Positions 22,357 through 26,688 of a DNA stretch of 37,433 nt are shown one piece after another (position 1 is the stretch's first letter; each line of letters begins with the position of its first letter). This DNA comes from an uncultured Clostridia bacterium (lineage in GTDB: Bacteria > Bacillota > Clostridia > Oscillospirales > Acutalibacteraceae): assembly GCA_945863885.1 (NCBI GenBank), contig CAMAZY010000025.1, positions 1-37,433 on the forward strand, given 5' to 3'. The notes under the pieces are model-generated. The model searched no databases and was not told the DNA's origin. It saw only the letters and a list, made by a program, of their open reading frames with translations. A program made the position numbers and the translations under genes.

Positions 22357-22386
22357 TTGACACGGGCGTGTCTTCGGGAATATAAT
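22357..22386 (+). promoter_or_regulatory. mtnN promoter with overlapping palindrome
   Basis: TTGACA (22357-22362) and TATAAT (22381-22386) are perfect and 18 bases apart. GACACG-GG-CGTGTC at 22359-22372 overlaps the -35 element and is a candidate operator. Confidence 0.7.
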
Positions 22387-22443
22387 AATGGAACAGAACA
22401 AAAACGAAAACAAAAACAGAGCGTGAAAGGACTGTCAAATCAA

Positions 22444-23151
22444 ATGAAAAAAACCGTCGGAATTATTTTTGCCGATTCTATGGAATATCTGCCTTTTAAA
22501 AAGTCAGCCGCCGAAAAAGGCGCAAAGGAAGAAACGCTCCGGGGCATGAACAGCATCGGATATACCGTACAAAAAGACGGAAACGAGCTGGAAATCGTTG
22601 CCGTCGAATGCGGAATCGGAAAGGTCAACGCCGCCTCGGCCGCCGCTTTCCTGATCGCCGACCGCAAAGCCGATACGATTCTCAACGCCGGACTTTCGGG
22701 CGCAATCAGTAAGGTCAAAAGAGAGGACATCGTTGTCGGGACAAGCTATATGCAGTGCGACCTTGATTTAACGGCAATCGGCTACAAGCTTGCCGAAAAG
22801 CCGGACGGCGAGGAGTATATCCACCCGGCGGACGAAACTCTTGTTGAACTGACAAAGCAAATCGGCTCTTTTTGTTACGGAAAACTCGGTACGGGCGATA
22901 TCTTCCTGACCGACAAGGACAAAAAGGAGCTTTTCAAAACGATGTTCGATCTAACCGCTTTTGATATGGAGACGGGAGCGATTGCAAGTATATGTCGGAA
23001 AAACAGCGTTCCGTTTCTTTCCATCAGAAAGATCAGCGACGACGCCGATGATGCTTCCGGTGAGGATTACCGGGAGATGAACAACCGTGCGGAAAGCTGT
23101 CTGACGGAGATTTTGGAAAAGCTGACGAAAAAAATCTGTGAAACCATGTAA
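22444..23151 (+). CDS. 5'-methylthioadenosine/S-adenosylhomocysteine nucleosidase family protein
   Basis: Members cleave adenine from methylthioadenosine and S-adenosylhomocysteine, helping recycle methionine. The 235-residue protein starts KKTVGIIFADSMEYLPF, has AVECGIGKVNAASAAAF, NAGLSGAI (phosphorylase fold), LTAFDMETGAIASIC with the substrate-binding Met-Glu, and SIRKISDDAD with the catalytic Asp. It is cytosolic. The ATG at 22444 is preceded at some distance by AAAGGA; upstream in-frame codons lack homologous residues. It has its own promoter and lies before the methionine-type transporter operon, fitting a shared theme. Other nucleosidases of the same fold are possible, so no symbol is given. 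Confidence 0.85.
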   Translation: MKKTVGIIFADSMEYLPFKKSAAEKGAKEETLRGMNSIGYTVQKDGNELEIVAVECGIGKVNAASAAAFLIADRKADTILNAGLSGAISKVKREDIVVGTSYMQCDLDLTAIGYKLAEKPDGEEYIHPADETLVELTKQIGSFCYGKLGTGDIFLTDKDKKELFKTMFDLTAFDMETGAIASICRKNSVPFLSIRKISDDADDASGEDYREMNNRAESCLTEILEKLTKKICETM

Positions 23152-23168: not shown

Positions 23169-23197
23169 TTGACAAGGTAGGTTTATTCCGCTATAAT
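23169..23197 (+). promoter_or_regulatory. Perfect consensus promoter before the 36-codon ORF
   Basis: TTGACA (23169-23174) and TATAAT (23192-23197) are 17 bases apart, the full SigA consensus. Confidence 0.85.
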
Positions 23198-23228: not shown

Positions 23229-23339
23229 GTGCACGAAAAATTCAACAAATTCGAAGAGCTCGTCCGGCAGAACTTCCGTTTCGGACGAATGTGCGGTTCA
23301 GATATCAGAAATCAGACAACAGATGTCAGAAATACTTGA
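23229..23339 (+). CDS. 36-codon ORF, probable gene remnant or small protein
   Basis: A GTG start preceded by AAGGCGG opens a 36-residue frame (HEKFNKFEELVRQNFRFGRM and so on). A perfect consensus promoter lies upstream. The last 12 or so codons are encoded by heptad array C, and the TGA overlaps the -35 of metQ. The first ~22 residues look like an ordinary protein N-terminus, so this may be the 5' stub of a gene whose remainder was replaced by the array. I do not recognise it. It could still be a functional small protein or leader. Confidence 0.45.
   Translation: MHEKFNKFEELVRQNFRFGRMCGSDIRNQTTDVRNT
23299..23333 (+). repeat. Heptad array C (CAGANNN)
   Basis: Five exact 7-base units: CAGATAT, CAGAAAT, CAGACAA, CAGATGT, CAGAAAT. 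The array ends three bases before the -35 of metQ. It is the most regular of the three related arrays. Confidence 0.85.
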
Positions 23340-23365
23340 CATTCATCTTATTTTAAGCCTATAAT
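23336..23365 (+). promoter_or_regulatory. metQ operon promoter
   Basis: TTGACA (23336-23341) and TATAAT (23360-23365) are 18 bases apart. The leader is only about 30 bases, too short for a SAM riboswitch or T-box. Confidence 0.8.
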
Positions 23366-23398
23366 ATAATCAATTGTAATGAAAGGAGTTTTACTCTT

Positions 23399-24334
23399 AT
23401 GAAAAAAATAGTATCCATAGCACTTGCCCTTGTTCTCGTTCTCGGCTGCGTTTTCGCTTTTGCCTCCTGCGGCGGTAAGAACGACACCGAAACCACCGCT
23501 TCCTCTGGCGAAGCTACCTCAGGCGAAGCTGCCACAAGCGAAGCCCCGTCAAACAAAAAGGCAACGGTTATCGCTGTTCCCAACGACACCACCAACGAAG
23601 CCAGAGCTTTGATGCTCCTTGAACAAAACGGTCTTATCAAGCTCAAAGAGGGCGCAGGCATTGCCGCCACGAAGAACGACATCGCCGAAAATCCGTACAA
23701 CATTGAAATCAAAGAAGTGGAAGCCGCTCAGATTCCCAACGTACTGCGTGACGTTGACTTCGGCGTTATCAACTCCAACTACGCCATTGCGGCCGGTATC
23801 AATCCGAAGGAACAGGCTCTTGTTCAGGAAAATTCCGCTTCCGCTTACTCCAACATTCTTGCCGTAAAAGAGGGTAACGAAAACAGCGACAGCATCAAGG
23901 CTCTTGTCGCCGCTCTCGAAAGCAAAAAGGTTGCCGACTTCATCAACGAAAAGTATGACGGCTCGGTAATCAGCGTTGTTGAGGCTCCGGGCGACGGATT
24001 TGATCCCAACGTTAATTACGACGCTCTGAAGGGCACCACCATCAAGGTTGCCGCTTCTCCCGCTCCGCACGCCGAGATTCTTGCTGTTGCCAAGGAAATC
24101 CTCAAGGAAAAGGACATCACGCTTGACGTTATTGAATATACGGATTATGTTCAGCCGAACAACGTTGTTGAAAGCGGCGAGGTTGACGCCAACTACTTCC
24201 AGCATACGCCCTACCTTGACGACTTCAACAAGGAAAACGGTACACACATCGTTTCCGTCGCTTCCATTCATGTTGAGCCGATGGGCATTTACGGCGGCAA
24301 GCAGACTTCCCTTGACGCAATCAAAGGTGAATAA
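23399..24334 (+). CDS. metQ: MetQ/NlpA-family substrate-binding lipoprotein, circularly permuted
   Basis: Family members capture methionine outside the membrane and deliver it to MetNI. The 311-residue precursor has a lipoprotein signal with lipid on Cys24 (FASC) and a Ser/Thr/Glu-rich linker to ~53. The order of the mature halves is reversed relative to known MetQ. Residues ~55-193 (VIAVPNDTTNEARALMLLE, AAQIPNVLRDVDFGVIN, SNYAIAAG, KKVADFINEKYDGSV) match the usual second half. Residues ~212-311 (IKVAASPAPHAEIL, EYTDYVQPN, DANYFQHTPYLDDFN, HVEPMGIYGG, SLDAIKGE) match the usual first half. The usual junction SLDELK/IAIPND is thus split to become the two termini. ATG follows AAAGGAG. First gene of a five-gene run. 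Methionine as ligand is likely but not proven. Confidence 0.9.
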   Translation: MKKIVSIALALVLVLGCVFAFASCGGKNDTETTASSGEATSGEAATSEAPSNKKATVIAVPNDTTNEARALMLLEQNGLIKLKEGAGIAATKNDIAENPYNIEIKEVEAAQIPNVLRDVDFGVINSNYAIAAGINPKEQALVQENSASAYSNILAVKEGNENSDSIKALVAALESKKVADFINEKYDGSVISVVEAPGDGFDPNVNYDALKGTTIKVAASPAPHAEILAVAKEILKEKDITLDVIEYTDYVQPNNVVESGEVDANYFQHTPYLDDFNKENGTHIVSVASIHVEPMGIYGGKQTSLDAIKGE

Positions 24335-24418: not shown

Positions 24419-25432
24419 GTGATTGAAATCAAAGGACTTTCAAAAACCTTTCAGACTGCCGACGGCAAGGTCGAAGCCTTAAGCGACATCAACCTGACGA
24501 TTGAGGACGGCGATATTTACGGAATCATCGGCATGAGCGGCGCCGGTAAAAGCACGCTTGTCCGGTGCATCAATATGCTCGAAAGACCGACAGAGGGCAC
24601 CGTTATCATCGACGGAACGGACATGACGAAGCTTTCGGCAAAACAGCTTCGTGAAAAACGCCGCAGCATCACGATGATTTTTCAGCAGTTCAATCTTCTT
24701 ATGCAGCGTAACTGCCTGAAAAACATCTGCTTTCCGATGGAGCTTGAAGGCGTAAAAAAGTCGGAAGCCAAAAAGAGAGCCAAAGAGCTTTTAGAAATTG
24801 TCGGACTGCCCGACAAGGCGCTCTCCTACCCTGCTCAGCTTTCGGGCGGTCAGCAGCAGAGAATCGCCATTGCAAGAGCCCTCGCCACAAACCCGAAGGT
24901 TCTTCTTTGCGATGAAGCGACAAGCGCACTCGACCCGAACACGACCCACTCGATTCTTGAGCTGATTCGTGACATCAACAAAAAGCTCGGCATCACCGTT
25001 GTCGTCATCACGCATCAGATGAGCGTCGTTGAGGATATCTGCCGCTCGGTTGCGATTCTCGACCAAGGTAAGGTCGTCGAGCAAGGCAGAGTGTCCGACA
25101 TTTTTGCGAATCCCCAATCACACGCCGCCAAGAAGCTTGTTTTCCCGTCGGGCGGCGAAAGCGTCATTCTCAAAAAAGAGGGCGAAAGACGTATGCGGAT
25201 CGTTTTCAACGGCTCCTCGACCGCCAGCACGCCCCTGATTGCCCAAATGGCGGCTGAGCACGGCATTTACGCCAACATCTTAGGCGCTTCGACAAGAAGC
25301 ATCAACGAACAGGCGTTCGGCAATATGTTAATCAGCATCAAGGACGAAAATTCGAATTTCGACAAAGCCATGGCGTATCTTCAAGCGCAAGACGGCATCA
25401 TTGTTGAGGAGGTGACCGATAATGGGCAGTAA
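24419..25432 (+). CDS. metN: Methionine-type ABC transporter ATPase MetN
   Basis: MetN hydrolyses ATP to power import through MetI. The 337-residue protein has Walker A GMSGAGKS (38-45), signature LSGGQQQR, Walker B VLLCDEATSALDP and the switch His in VITHQMS. The C-terminal ~75 residues (from MRIVFNGSSTASTPLIAQMA) form the NIL domain that binds methionine and inhibits transport in known MetN. The start is GTG at 24419, preceded by AAGGAGGG. The 3' end overlaps metI by 11 bp. Confidence 0.95.
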   Translation: MIEIKGLSKTFQTADGKVEALSDINLTIEDGDIYGIIGMSGAGKSTLVRCINMLERPTEGTVIIDGTDMTKLSAKQLREKRRSITMIFQQFNLLMQRNCLKNICFPMELEGVKKSEAKKRAKELLEIVGLPDKALSYPAQLSGGQQQRIAIARALATNPKVLLCDEATSALDPNTTHSILELIRDINKKLGITVVVITHQMSVVEDICRSVAILDQGKVVEQGRVSDIFANPQSHAAKKLVFPSGGESVILKKEGERRMRIVFNGSSTASTPLIAQMAAEHGIYANILGASTRSINEQAFGNMLISIKDENSNFDKAMAYLQAQDGIIVEEVTDNGQ

Positions 25433-26126
25433 GCTGTTTTCCGCCGAAGCGTTTCAGCTTGCGTGGGAGGTTTTGAAAACACAGATTCCCCTGGCAATAT
25501 GGGAGACCTTTTATATGACGGTGCTTTCGACCGCCCTTGCTATCGTGATCGGTCTGCCGCTCGGCGTCCTTCTTGTTGTCGGCGACAAAAACGGCATTCT
25601 TCCGCTTCCGAAGCCGATTATGAGCGTCTTAAACGTCATCATCAATCTGCTTCGTTCGGTTCCGTTTCTGATTCTTATGATTATGGTGTTCCCCCTTTCA
25701 AGGGCTATCGTCGGAACGACCGTCGGTACCAAGGCGGTTATCGTTCCGCTTGTCATTGCGGCGTTTCCGTTTGTTGCCCGCCTTGTTGAAGGGAGCCTTC
25801 GGGAAGTCAACCCGAACATCATCGAAGCCGCCCAGAGCATGGGCGCCACCCCGTTTCAGATTATCTGCAAGGTAATGCTGCCCGAAAGCGTTCCGTCACT
25901 TATCTCGAACGCCACGATTGCCATTACGACAATTCTCGGCTATTCGGCGATGAGCGGCATCATCGGCGGCGGCGGCTTAGGCATGATTGCCATCAATTAC
26001 GGCTATTACCGGTATAAATATCTGACAATGGTTGTCGCTGTTATTCTGCTTGTCATCATGGTACAGATTTTCCAGAGTGTCGGTACCTACCTTGCAACAA
26101 AAAGCGACAAGAGACTGAAGAAATGA
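25422..26126 (+). CDS. metI: Methionine-type ABC transporter permease MetI
   Basis: MetI forms the membrane channel of the MetNIQ importer. The 234-residue protein has about five membrane helices, with the first at ~23-50. The family motif NLLRSVPFLILMI and the ATPase-coupling EAA loop (EAAQSMGATPFQIICKVMLP) are clear, as is SGIIGGGGLGMIAINYGY. Length matches known MetI. It overlaps metN by 11 bp, and the AhpD-like gene follows 10 bp later, so expression is tightly coupled. Confidence 0.95.
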   Translation: MGSKLFSAEAFQLAWEVLKTQIPLAIWETFYMTVLSTALAIVIGLPLGVLLVVGDKNGILPLPKPIMSVLNVIINLLRSVPFLILMIMVFPLSRAIVGTTVGTKAVIVPLVIAAFPFVARLVEGSLREVNPNIIEAAQSMGATPFQIICKVMLPESVPSLISNATIAITTILGYSAMSGIIGGGGLGMIAINYGYYRYKYLTMVVAVILLVIMVQIFQSVGTYLATKSDKRLKK

Positions 26127-26136
26127 GGAGAAAAGT

Positions 26137-26688
26137 ATGAGCTATCTCAGTATGATGGATTATGAGACTTCAAGTGACGAAGTCAAACGTGAATTTGACG
26201 ACCAGATAAAAAAGCACGGCAGAATTACCAACATGAAGAAAACGCTTCTTCATTCTGTTCCGGCTTTCAAGGCTTACATGGAGTGGTACACGCTTTACGA
26301 CCTGATTGTGCCGTTTGTCGGCGAACGGGCGTTAAGCCTTTACTGCTATGCGATTTCAAAGGGCAACGACTGTCTGATCTGCGGCTCGTTTTTCCGCAAG
26401 ATTCTGATTGACGCCGGGGAAGACCCGGACAATCCGAACCTTTCCGAGACGGAAAGTCTTTTGATGGAACTCGGTCAGGCGATCTGTGTTGACCCGCACC
26501 ATATTCCCGACTATATCTACGACGACTTAAAGAAGCTGTTTAATGAAGAACAAATCGTTTTGCTGCTTTCGTTCGCCGGTATCATGTACGCAACGAATCT
26601 CTTCAACACGATTGCCAAAGTGCCGCTTGACGAGGTACTGTACAACTACAAGCTGAAAACCAAAGAGGAGGAAACCGAAAATGGCTGA
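26137..26688 (+). CDS. AhpD/carboxymuconolactone decarboxylase-like protein
   Basis: The 183-residue protein is an all-helical AhpD-like protein. The usual redox pair is present as Cys79-x-x-Cys82 (CLIC), with Glu63 in VGERALSLY upstream. The proton-relay histidine usually four residues after the second Cys is replaced by Phe86. It has no signal peptide. GAGGAG precedes the ATG. It sits 10 bp after metI and overlaps the next gene by 8 bp, so it belongs to the transporter operon. A peroxidase-type or other redox role with the dehydrogenase is possible; the substrate is unknown. The call is to family level only. Confidence 0.75.
   Translation: MSYLSMMDYETSSDEVKREFDDQIKKHGRITNMKKTLLHSVPAFKAYMEWYTLYDLIVPFVGERALSLYCYAISKGNDCLICGSFFRKILIDAGEDPDNPNLSETESLLMELGQAICVDPHHIPDYIYDDLKKLFNEEQIVLLLSFAGIMYATNLFNTIAKVPLDEVLYNYKLKTKEEETENG

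Follow-up and report, generated by a model that had tools for sequence, protein, structure and literature searches.

A described counterpart of the system presented here is Tp0684 (TpMglB-2, the MglB-2 protein of Treponema), a circularly permuted type I glucose-binding lipoprotein of solved structure, for which the designation Type Ic / Cluster Bc was proposed and which still binds its ligand and changes shape. Its permuted part is 13% identical to the canonical counterpart, and the authors left open its recruitment from another gene (PMC4990184). Within type II folds, a circular-permutation family of glycine-betaine-binding proteins (OpuAC, ProX), molybdate-binding proteins and CysB was described with CPSARST (PMC2395249), and for DNA methyltransferases with permuted order duplicated permutation intermediates were documented (PMC3320104). 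The locus analysed in this study lies in a 37,433-nucleotide stretch of DNA (the window) from an uncultured Clostridia bacterium (assembly GCA_945863885.1, contig CAMAZY010000025.1), and its metQ gene encodes a MetQ/NlpA lipoprotein in which the canonical second half precedes the first. The first-pass annotation of the window took such a permutation of a type II binding-protein fold to be undescribed, but permuted binding proteins are on record in Tp0684 and the OpuAC/molybdate/CysB family.

The metQ open reading frame (ORF; 23399-24334, + strand) was unbroken and its direct translation gave 311 residues with the following features.

23399..23470 (+): signal peptide and lipobox, residues 1-24, with Cys24 as the predicted lipid anchor (pattern read in the translation)
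23471..23560 (+): low-complexity spacer, residues 25-54 (translation; blocks with a predicted local distance difference test score, pLDDT, of 47-56)
23561..23977 (+): canonical second half, residues 55-193, with ligand residues R69, N125 and N152 (Pfam, phmmer, residue mapping)
23978..24031 (+): linker of 18 residues, 194-211 (PGDGFDPNVNYDALK), a homologue of the N-terminal arm found in canonical MetQ of the Gemmiger type
24032..24325 (+): canonical first half, residues 212-309, with ligand residues Y250, F267, H269 and Y272 (phmmer, residue mapping)
24326..24334 (+): two C-terminal residues and the stop codon, at the former lobe-to-lobe crossover

The product was assigned to Pfam Lipoprotein_9 with 279.5 bits, above the curated cut-off of 27. 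Instead of one canonical stretch, the profile was matched as two stretches in reversed order, which indicates a permuted variant and not an ordinary family member; the best of them, residues 53-192, corresponded to profile positions 95-234 of 236, i.e., the second half. A canonical control (L087) gave a single stretch. In a phmmer comparison with the PDB, residues 213-309 matched positions 11-107 of 4ib2 and residues 57-191 matched positions 111-249, the best stretch lying at the canonical-order location in all 22 PDB sequences of the listing. The swapped order proposed by the first-pass annotation was thus borne out, its coordinates and residue ranges were correct within a few residues, and the retained signal peptide and lipobox could be read directly. 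As it had also stated, no leftover half-copy was present inside the ORF. With the NCBIfam MetQ models NF008285 and TIGR00363, the protein stayed below the cut-offs (166.9 of 374 and 164.1 of 228.85 bits, respectively), and since four canonical MetQs tried (L087, L093, L274 and L180) missed them as well, these cut-offs do not tell permuted from canonical proteins. The halves were 56-73% identical to Gemmiger-type canonical MetQ. Their third-position GC content (0.60 and 0.62) was close to that of metN and metI (0.63 each), so neither half appears newly imported. These data support a genuine circular permutation of MetQ.

An assembly or binning artefact might be suspected, as the window genome is a fragmented metagenome-assembled genome (MAG; 67 contigs, 97.97% complete) and most of the related loci carry a MAG label. 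Once the species-genome collection had been scanned (best 80 of 154 loci) and the order scored by a separate model for each half, this explanation became practically negligible. Over all loci, 104 distinct permuted, 175 canonical and six single-half ORFs were detected, and 103 permuted (the window protein included) and 170 canonical proteins passed a completeness filter. The permuted order was found in strain-named records carrying no MAG label, namely Oscillibacter sp. MSJ-31, O. valericigenes An907, Faecalibacterium sp. An122 and F. gallinarum JCM 17207 (L035, L045, L064 and L070), and in a plasmid record of Vescimonas fastidiosa MM35, in which the product is annotated as plain MetQ/NlpA (WP_212820853.1).

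The permuted proteins were divided into groups A-D named by their linker, after manual reassignment of one protein from B to A. Group A, to which the window protein belongs, comprised 79 proteins from Bacillota and some Treponema, with a linker of 18 residues in 78 of them, a constancy that also speaks against an artefact. Group B consisted of 14 proteins from Coriobacteriia (linker 13-15 residues), group C of eight from the Gemmiger family (linker 12) and group D of two from Coriobacteriia (L189 and L190; linker 26). The cut site was common: in A, B and C taken together, the chain of 99 of 101 proteins ended 0-4 residues past the half-1 model (0-2 residues in 72 of the 79 in group A), and in D it ended 7-8 residues past it.

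In whole-genome surveys, permuted copies were counted as single long matches among the matches listed. In the window's class, the permuted form was present in at least 16 of 341 genomes; of the 341, 140 gave any match at 1e-20. The corresponding figures were at least nine of 24 for its genus, its own genome included, at least 12 of 197 for the Gemmiger family (four A and eight C; 76 with any match), at least 15 of 296 for Coriobacteriia (13 B and two D; 149 with any match) and at least one of 198 for Spirochaetota (43 with any match). No other match was found in the A, B and C genomes at limits of 1e-8 for Coriobacteriia and the Gemmiger family and 1e-20 for the window's class; both D genomes and the spirochaete additionally carried canonical copies. 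At one locus from a horse-faeces Treponema (L071, 1125 to beyond 6886), a distant canonical metN-metI-metQ set was located directly upstream of permuted metQ-metN-metI.

The AlphaFold model of the window protein was confident (pLDDT 89), and the predicted two-lobed structure, resembling solved members, was that of a type II (ModA/OpuAC-like) binding protein. A sequential structure aligner matched 141 residues of 4ib2, with 55% identity over the aligned residues, versus 243 of 243 for the canonical control. In Neisseria MetQ, methionine is contacted by R156, N213 and N238 of one lobe and Y81, F98, H100 and Y103 of the other, N238 being equivalent to N229 of E. coli (PMC6739813). These seven contacts were mapped via E. 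coli MetQ to R69, N125 and N152 and to Y250, F267, H269 and Y272 of the window protein, the N238/N229 pair being taken from the paper and the other six matched by letter near that offset. None of the seven was lost in any of the 103 permuted proteins, and in the canonical set each was present in 154 to 170 of the 170. Most likely, the permuted MetQ supplies MetNI with methionine in the manner of ordinary MetQ.

The swap places the lipid anchor on the other lobe. Of 60 aligned permuted proteins, at least 90% had cysteine at the Cys24 position. The distance from this residue to the fold, approximate as it was measured to the model starts, had a median of six residues in A, B and C (75 of 79, 14 of 14 and eight of eight proteins, respectively) versus 16 in canonical proteins (152 of 170). 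The spacer of the window protein (residues 25-54) exceeded that of most permuted relatives, the group A median being 6. Lipidation matters for MetNI stimulation in Neisseria (PMC8416018), so the shifted anchor may have functional effects. The lipobox pattern missed four of the 79 group A relatives, among them L069, which has an LPAC site. Three group A proteins (L075, L077 and L080; two Treponema and one Clostridia record) had no recognisable lipobox cysteine, hence the tether is not universal. By eye, a twin-arginine-like signal (RRNFLK or RRDFLK) was noticed in the permuted L064, L066, L070, L073, L082 and L159, which could mean export in the folded state.

The first-pass annotation assumed one permutation event, which was not confirmed, as the four permuted groups were separate, each with its own linker and canonical neighbours. 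For the MetQ trees the halves were aligned separately and then joined in canonical order. The tree of the first set (77 rows) showed three state changes, for A, B and C, with each clade at 100% bootstrap, and the approximately unbiased (AU) test rejected one A+B+C clade (p 0.030). In a second set of 64 rows with more canonical neighbours, well-supported branches forced three changes and all joint clades were rejected (p 0.00115 for A+B+C, 0.00845 for A+C, 0.000348 for B+C and 0.00976 for A+B). One clade including D was rejected in a 40-row set with p 2.7e-60; group D was placed with canonical Treponema proteins, which fell among the two D rows. The partner genes agreed in part with independent origins. 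In the MetN+MetI tree, a branch with 100/100 support had A on one side, along with canonical operons including those of Gemmiger, and B and C on the other, and single clades of A+B+C (p 1.7e-67) and B+C (p 4.9e-7) were rejected. The gene order was Q-N-I in A and its Gemmiger relatives and N-I-Q in B, C and the D locus with metN/metI nearby.

The linkers bear on the route of permutation. With the motif of the group A linker, NP-G/T-DGYD..VDY.AL.G, the N-terminal spacers of 169 canonical MetQs were scored, and four Gemmiger-type proteins stood out (L087, 42.2 bits; L089, 40.8; L169, 35.4; L171, 28.0), the next best of 49,789 windows reaching -7.8 bits. These matches identify the group A linker as the old N-terminal arm, now joined to the old C-terminus; the arm was already ordered in the L087 model (pLDDT blocks of 91 and 96, the preceding block 56). 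The linker of group D resembled, by eye, the C-terminal tail of a canonical protein with a Ser-rich spacer after it. An arm-derived linker in A and a tail-like linker in D are what duplication and end-to-end fusion predict. The general alternative route is fission of metQ into two genes and their re-fusion in the other order (PMC3320104). These two linkers speak against it, and no separate half-genes were found among the six single-half ORFs, five of which ran off the end of the DNA, the sixth (L027) being a full-length divergent paralogue whose first half was missed by the model; fission is regarded as rather unlikely.

Canonical metQ genes in tandem were encountered in several records. In spirochaetes (L353:1482-4018, L301, L299 and L293) two or three follow each other, with open frames sometimes touching, and on a plasmid of Deinococcus wulumuqiensis (L362:2659-4243) two are 34 bases apart. 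Such genes are possible raw material for fusion and permutation. In L108 (3031-4638, +) and L187 (2870-4600, -), one ORF carries SBP_bac_3, a family-3 amino-acid binding domain, ahead of a canonical MetQ domain; both of these fusions of two receptors lie next to metN and metI.

Several observations weigh against this picture of recurrent, functional permutation by duplication. The strongly supported branches of the first set forced only two changes, and neither A+B (p 0.0905) nor B+C (p 0.0928) was rejected there. In the second set, the single-clade support of A and B was only 80/98 and 68/8, and its canonical neighbours were picked after a quick tree had been viewed, the permuted groups being named by linker. 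The two D proteins did not form one clade, possibly through reversion or a fifth event. Neither A nor B was one clade in the MetN+MetI tree, although A as one clade was not rejected (p 0.439), hence metQ may to some extent have moved from one operon to another or reverted in Gemmiger. The B, C and D linkers did not match the A motif, so the arm origin applies to A only, and no fused tandem MetQ-MetQ intermediate was present among the classified ORFs (175 canonical, 104 permuted and six single-half). Moreover, 15 of the 24 genomes of the window's genus, its own included in the count, had no MetQ match, so that the system is dispensable.

The non-rejected pairs of the first set could also be accommodated by a single ancient permutation from which groups A-D descend, with reversions to canonical order or with metQ alone spreading into different operons. 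All groups are cut at the same place, and the transporter tree shows that the histories of metQ and metNI can differ. It conflicts, however, with the second-set and D tests, with linkers that differ among groups in sequence and length, with a loop length in C equal to that of its canonical neighbours (L179 and L195 differ) and with the different gene orders. Common descent of all four groups is therefore judged unlikely, and MetQ was probably re-opened at the hinge independently at least four times (A, B, C and D).

In the window the gene order is metQ-metN-metI, metN carrying a NIL domain as expected of this operon. The features around metQ were as follows.

22357..23151 (+): 5'-methylthioadenosine/S-adenosylhomocysteine (MTA/SAH) nucleosidase, a methionine-salvage enzyme, directly upstream of metQ (TIGR01704, 92.2 bits, cut-off 73.8)
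23336..23365 (+): promoter-like TTGACA-18-TATAAT upstream of metQ (12 of 12 consensus matches; a consensus match only)
23383..23388 (+): ribosome-binding site AAGGAG (read directly)
24419..25432 (+): metN, ATPase with a C-terminal NIL domain and a GTG start after AAGGAGG (Pfam ABC_tran, NIL)
25422..26126 (+): metI, permease (Pfam BPD_transp_1)

A second 12/12 promoter-like site was located at 23169-23197. MetN reached 360.3 bits with the ABC_MetN model, below the cut-off of 499.7, and MetI 204.1 bits with the MetI model, slightly below the cut-off of 212. The ORF at 26137-26688 (+; 183 residues), between metI and a short-chain dehydrogenase gene, had no Pfam match at E 0.001. No second MetQ was found in the window genome: four other hits were weak and their surrounding ORFs matched neither half model.

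The permuted protein might have left methionine import for another ligand or a receptor role. In favour of this, no Rfam match was obtained in the window, thus no S-adenosylmethionine (SAM) or T-box leader. The conservation of the seven contacts in all 103 permuted proteins, the operon with metI and a NIL-domain MetN, the salvage nucleosidase upstream and the status of the protein as the sole MetQ found in the genome render such a change of role very unlikely. The proposal of the first-pass annotation that the protein is probably functional is supported by these features together with the sequence order, the predicted structure with its canonical control and the occurrence in many other genomes.

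Taken as a whole, a functional permuted MetQ, with the same cut made at least four times independently and probably through duplication and fusion, is considered very likely. According to this explanation, the naturally permuted lipoprotein would capture methionine for the MetNI importer. Its chain has been opened at the first inter-lobe crossover (the hinge), and a short ordered linker now connects the former C- and N-termini, so that the predicted fold and the methionine site are kept. The lipid anchor would now enter at the hinge side of the other lobe, and the two lobes would close on methionine and dock on MetNI as in ordinary MetQ. In group A, the former N-terminal arm serving as linker points to tandem duplication, in-frame fusion and trimming. 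More speculatively, the hinge of MetQ might be a recurrent permutation site, to which the lipid-anchored N-terminus was relocated in at least four lineages independently because opening, closing or MetNI docking changes, possibly to some benefit. A short anchor would then sit at the hinge, with one covalent crossover cut; the tandem metQ genes of the family would be the raw material, and in group A the closure element would have pre-existed as the ordered N-terminal arm. This proposal remains tentative and is at present the less probable view.

Among the papers listed by searches of the open-access literature aimed at it, none reports a permuted MetQ, judged by title and the start of the abstract. 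Apparently new are the permutation of MetQ itself, the repeated use of one hinge by close relatives and the traceable origin of one of the linkers. The reported binding-protein permutations that were found connect distant proteins and reveal nothing of the route, whereas MetQ has close relatives in both orders. Two questions thereby become directly testable: whether permutations arise by duplication or by fission, and whether closure and docking need both hinge crossovers. Annotation labels such a protein plain MetQ. The apparently recurrent swap in this methionine-uptake protein of gut bacteria shows that the chain of a natural protein can be re-cut quite freely, and the protein, with its new termini at the hinge, is a natural scaffold for methionine sensors.

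With canonical MetQ/NlpA (E. coli, Neisseria and 4ib2 from Ruminococcus gnavus) the window protein shares the family, the lobes, the ligand residues, the lipoprotein signal and the metN/metI partners, and differs in the order of the halves, the termini at the hinge and the lipid anchor on the other lobe. Tp0684 is likewise a natural circular permutation of a membrane-tethered binding protein, found in treponemes and Gram-positive gut bacteria, but has a type I fold, a sugar ligand and a different cut site (PMC4990184); its absence from the 50 matches listed by either structure search carries no weight. The permuted DNA methyltransferases are enzymes and not binding proteins. The members of the OpuAC/ProX/molybdate/CysB family are very distant (<24% identity), with no route visible (PMC2395249), whereas the halves of the window MetQ retain 56-73% identity to canonical relatives and the origin of one linker can be seen.
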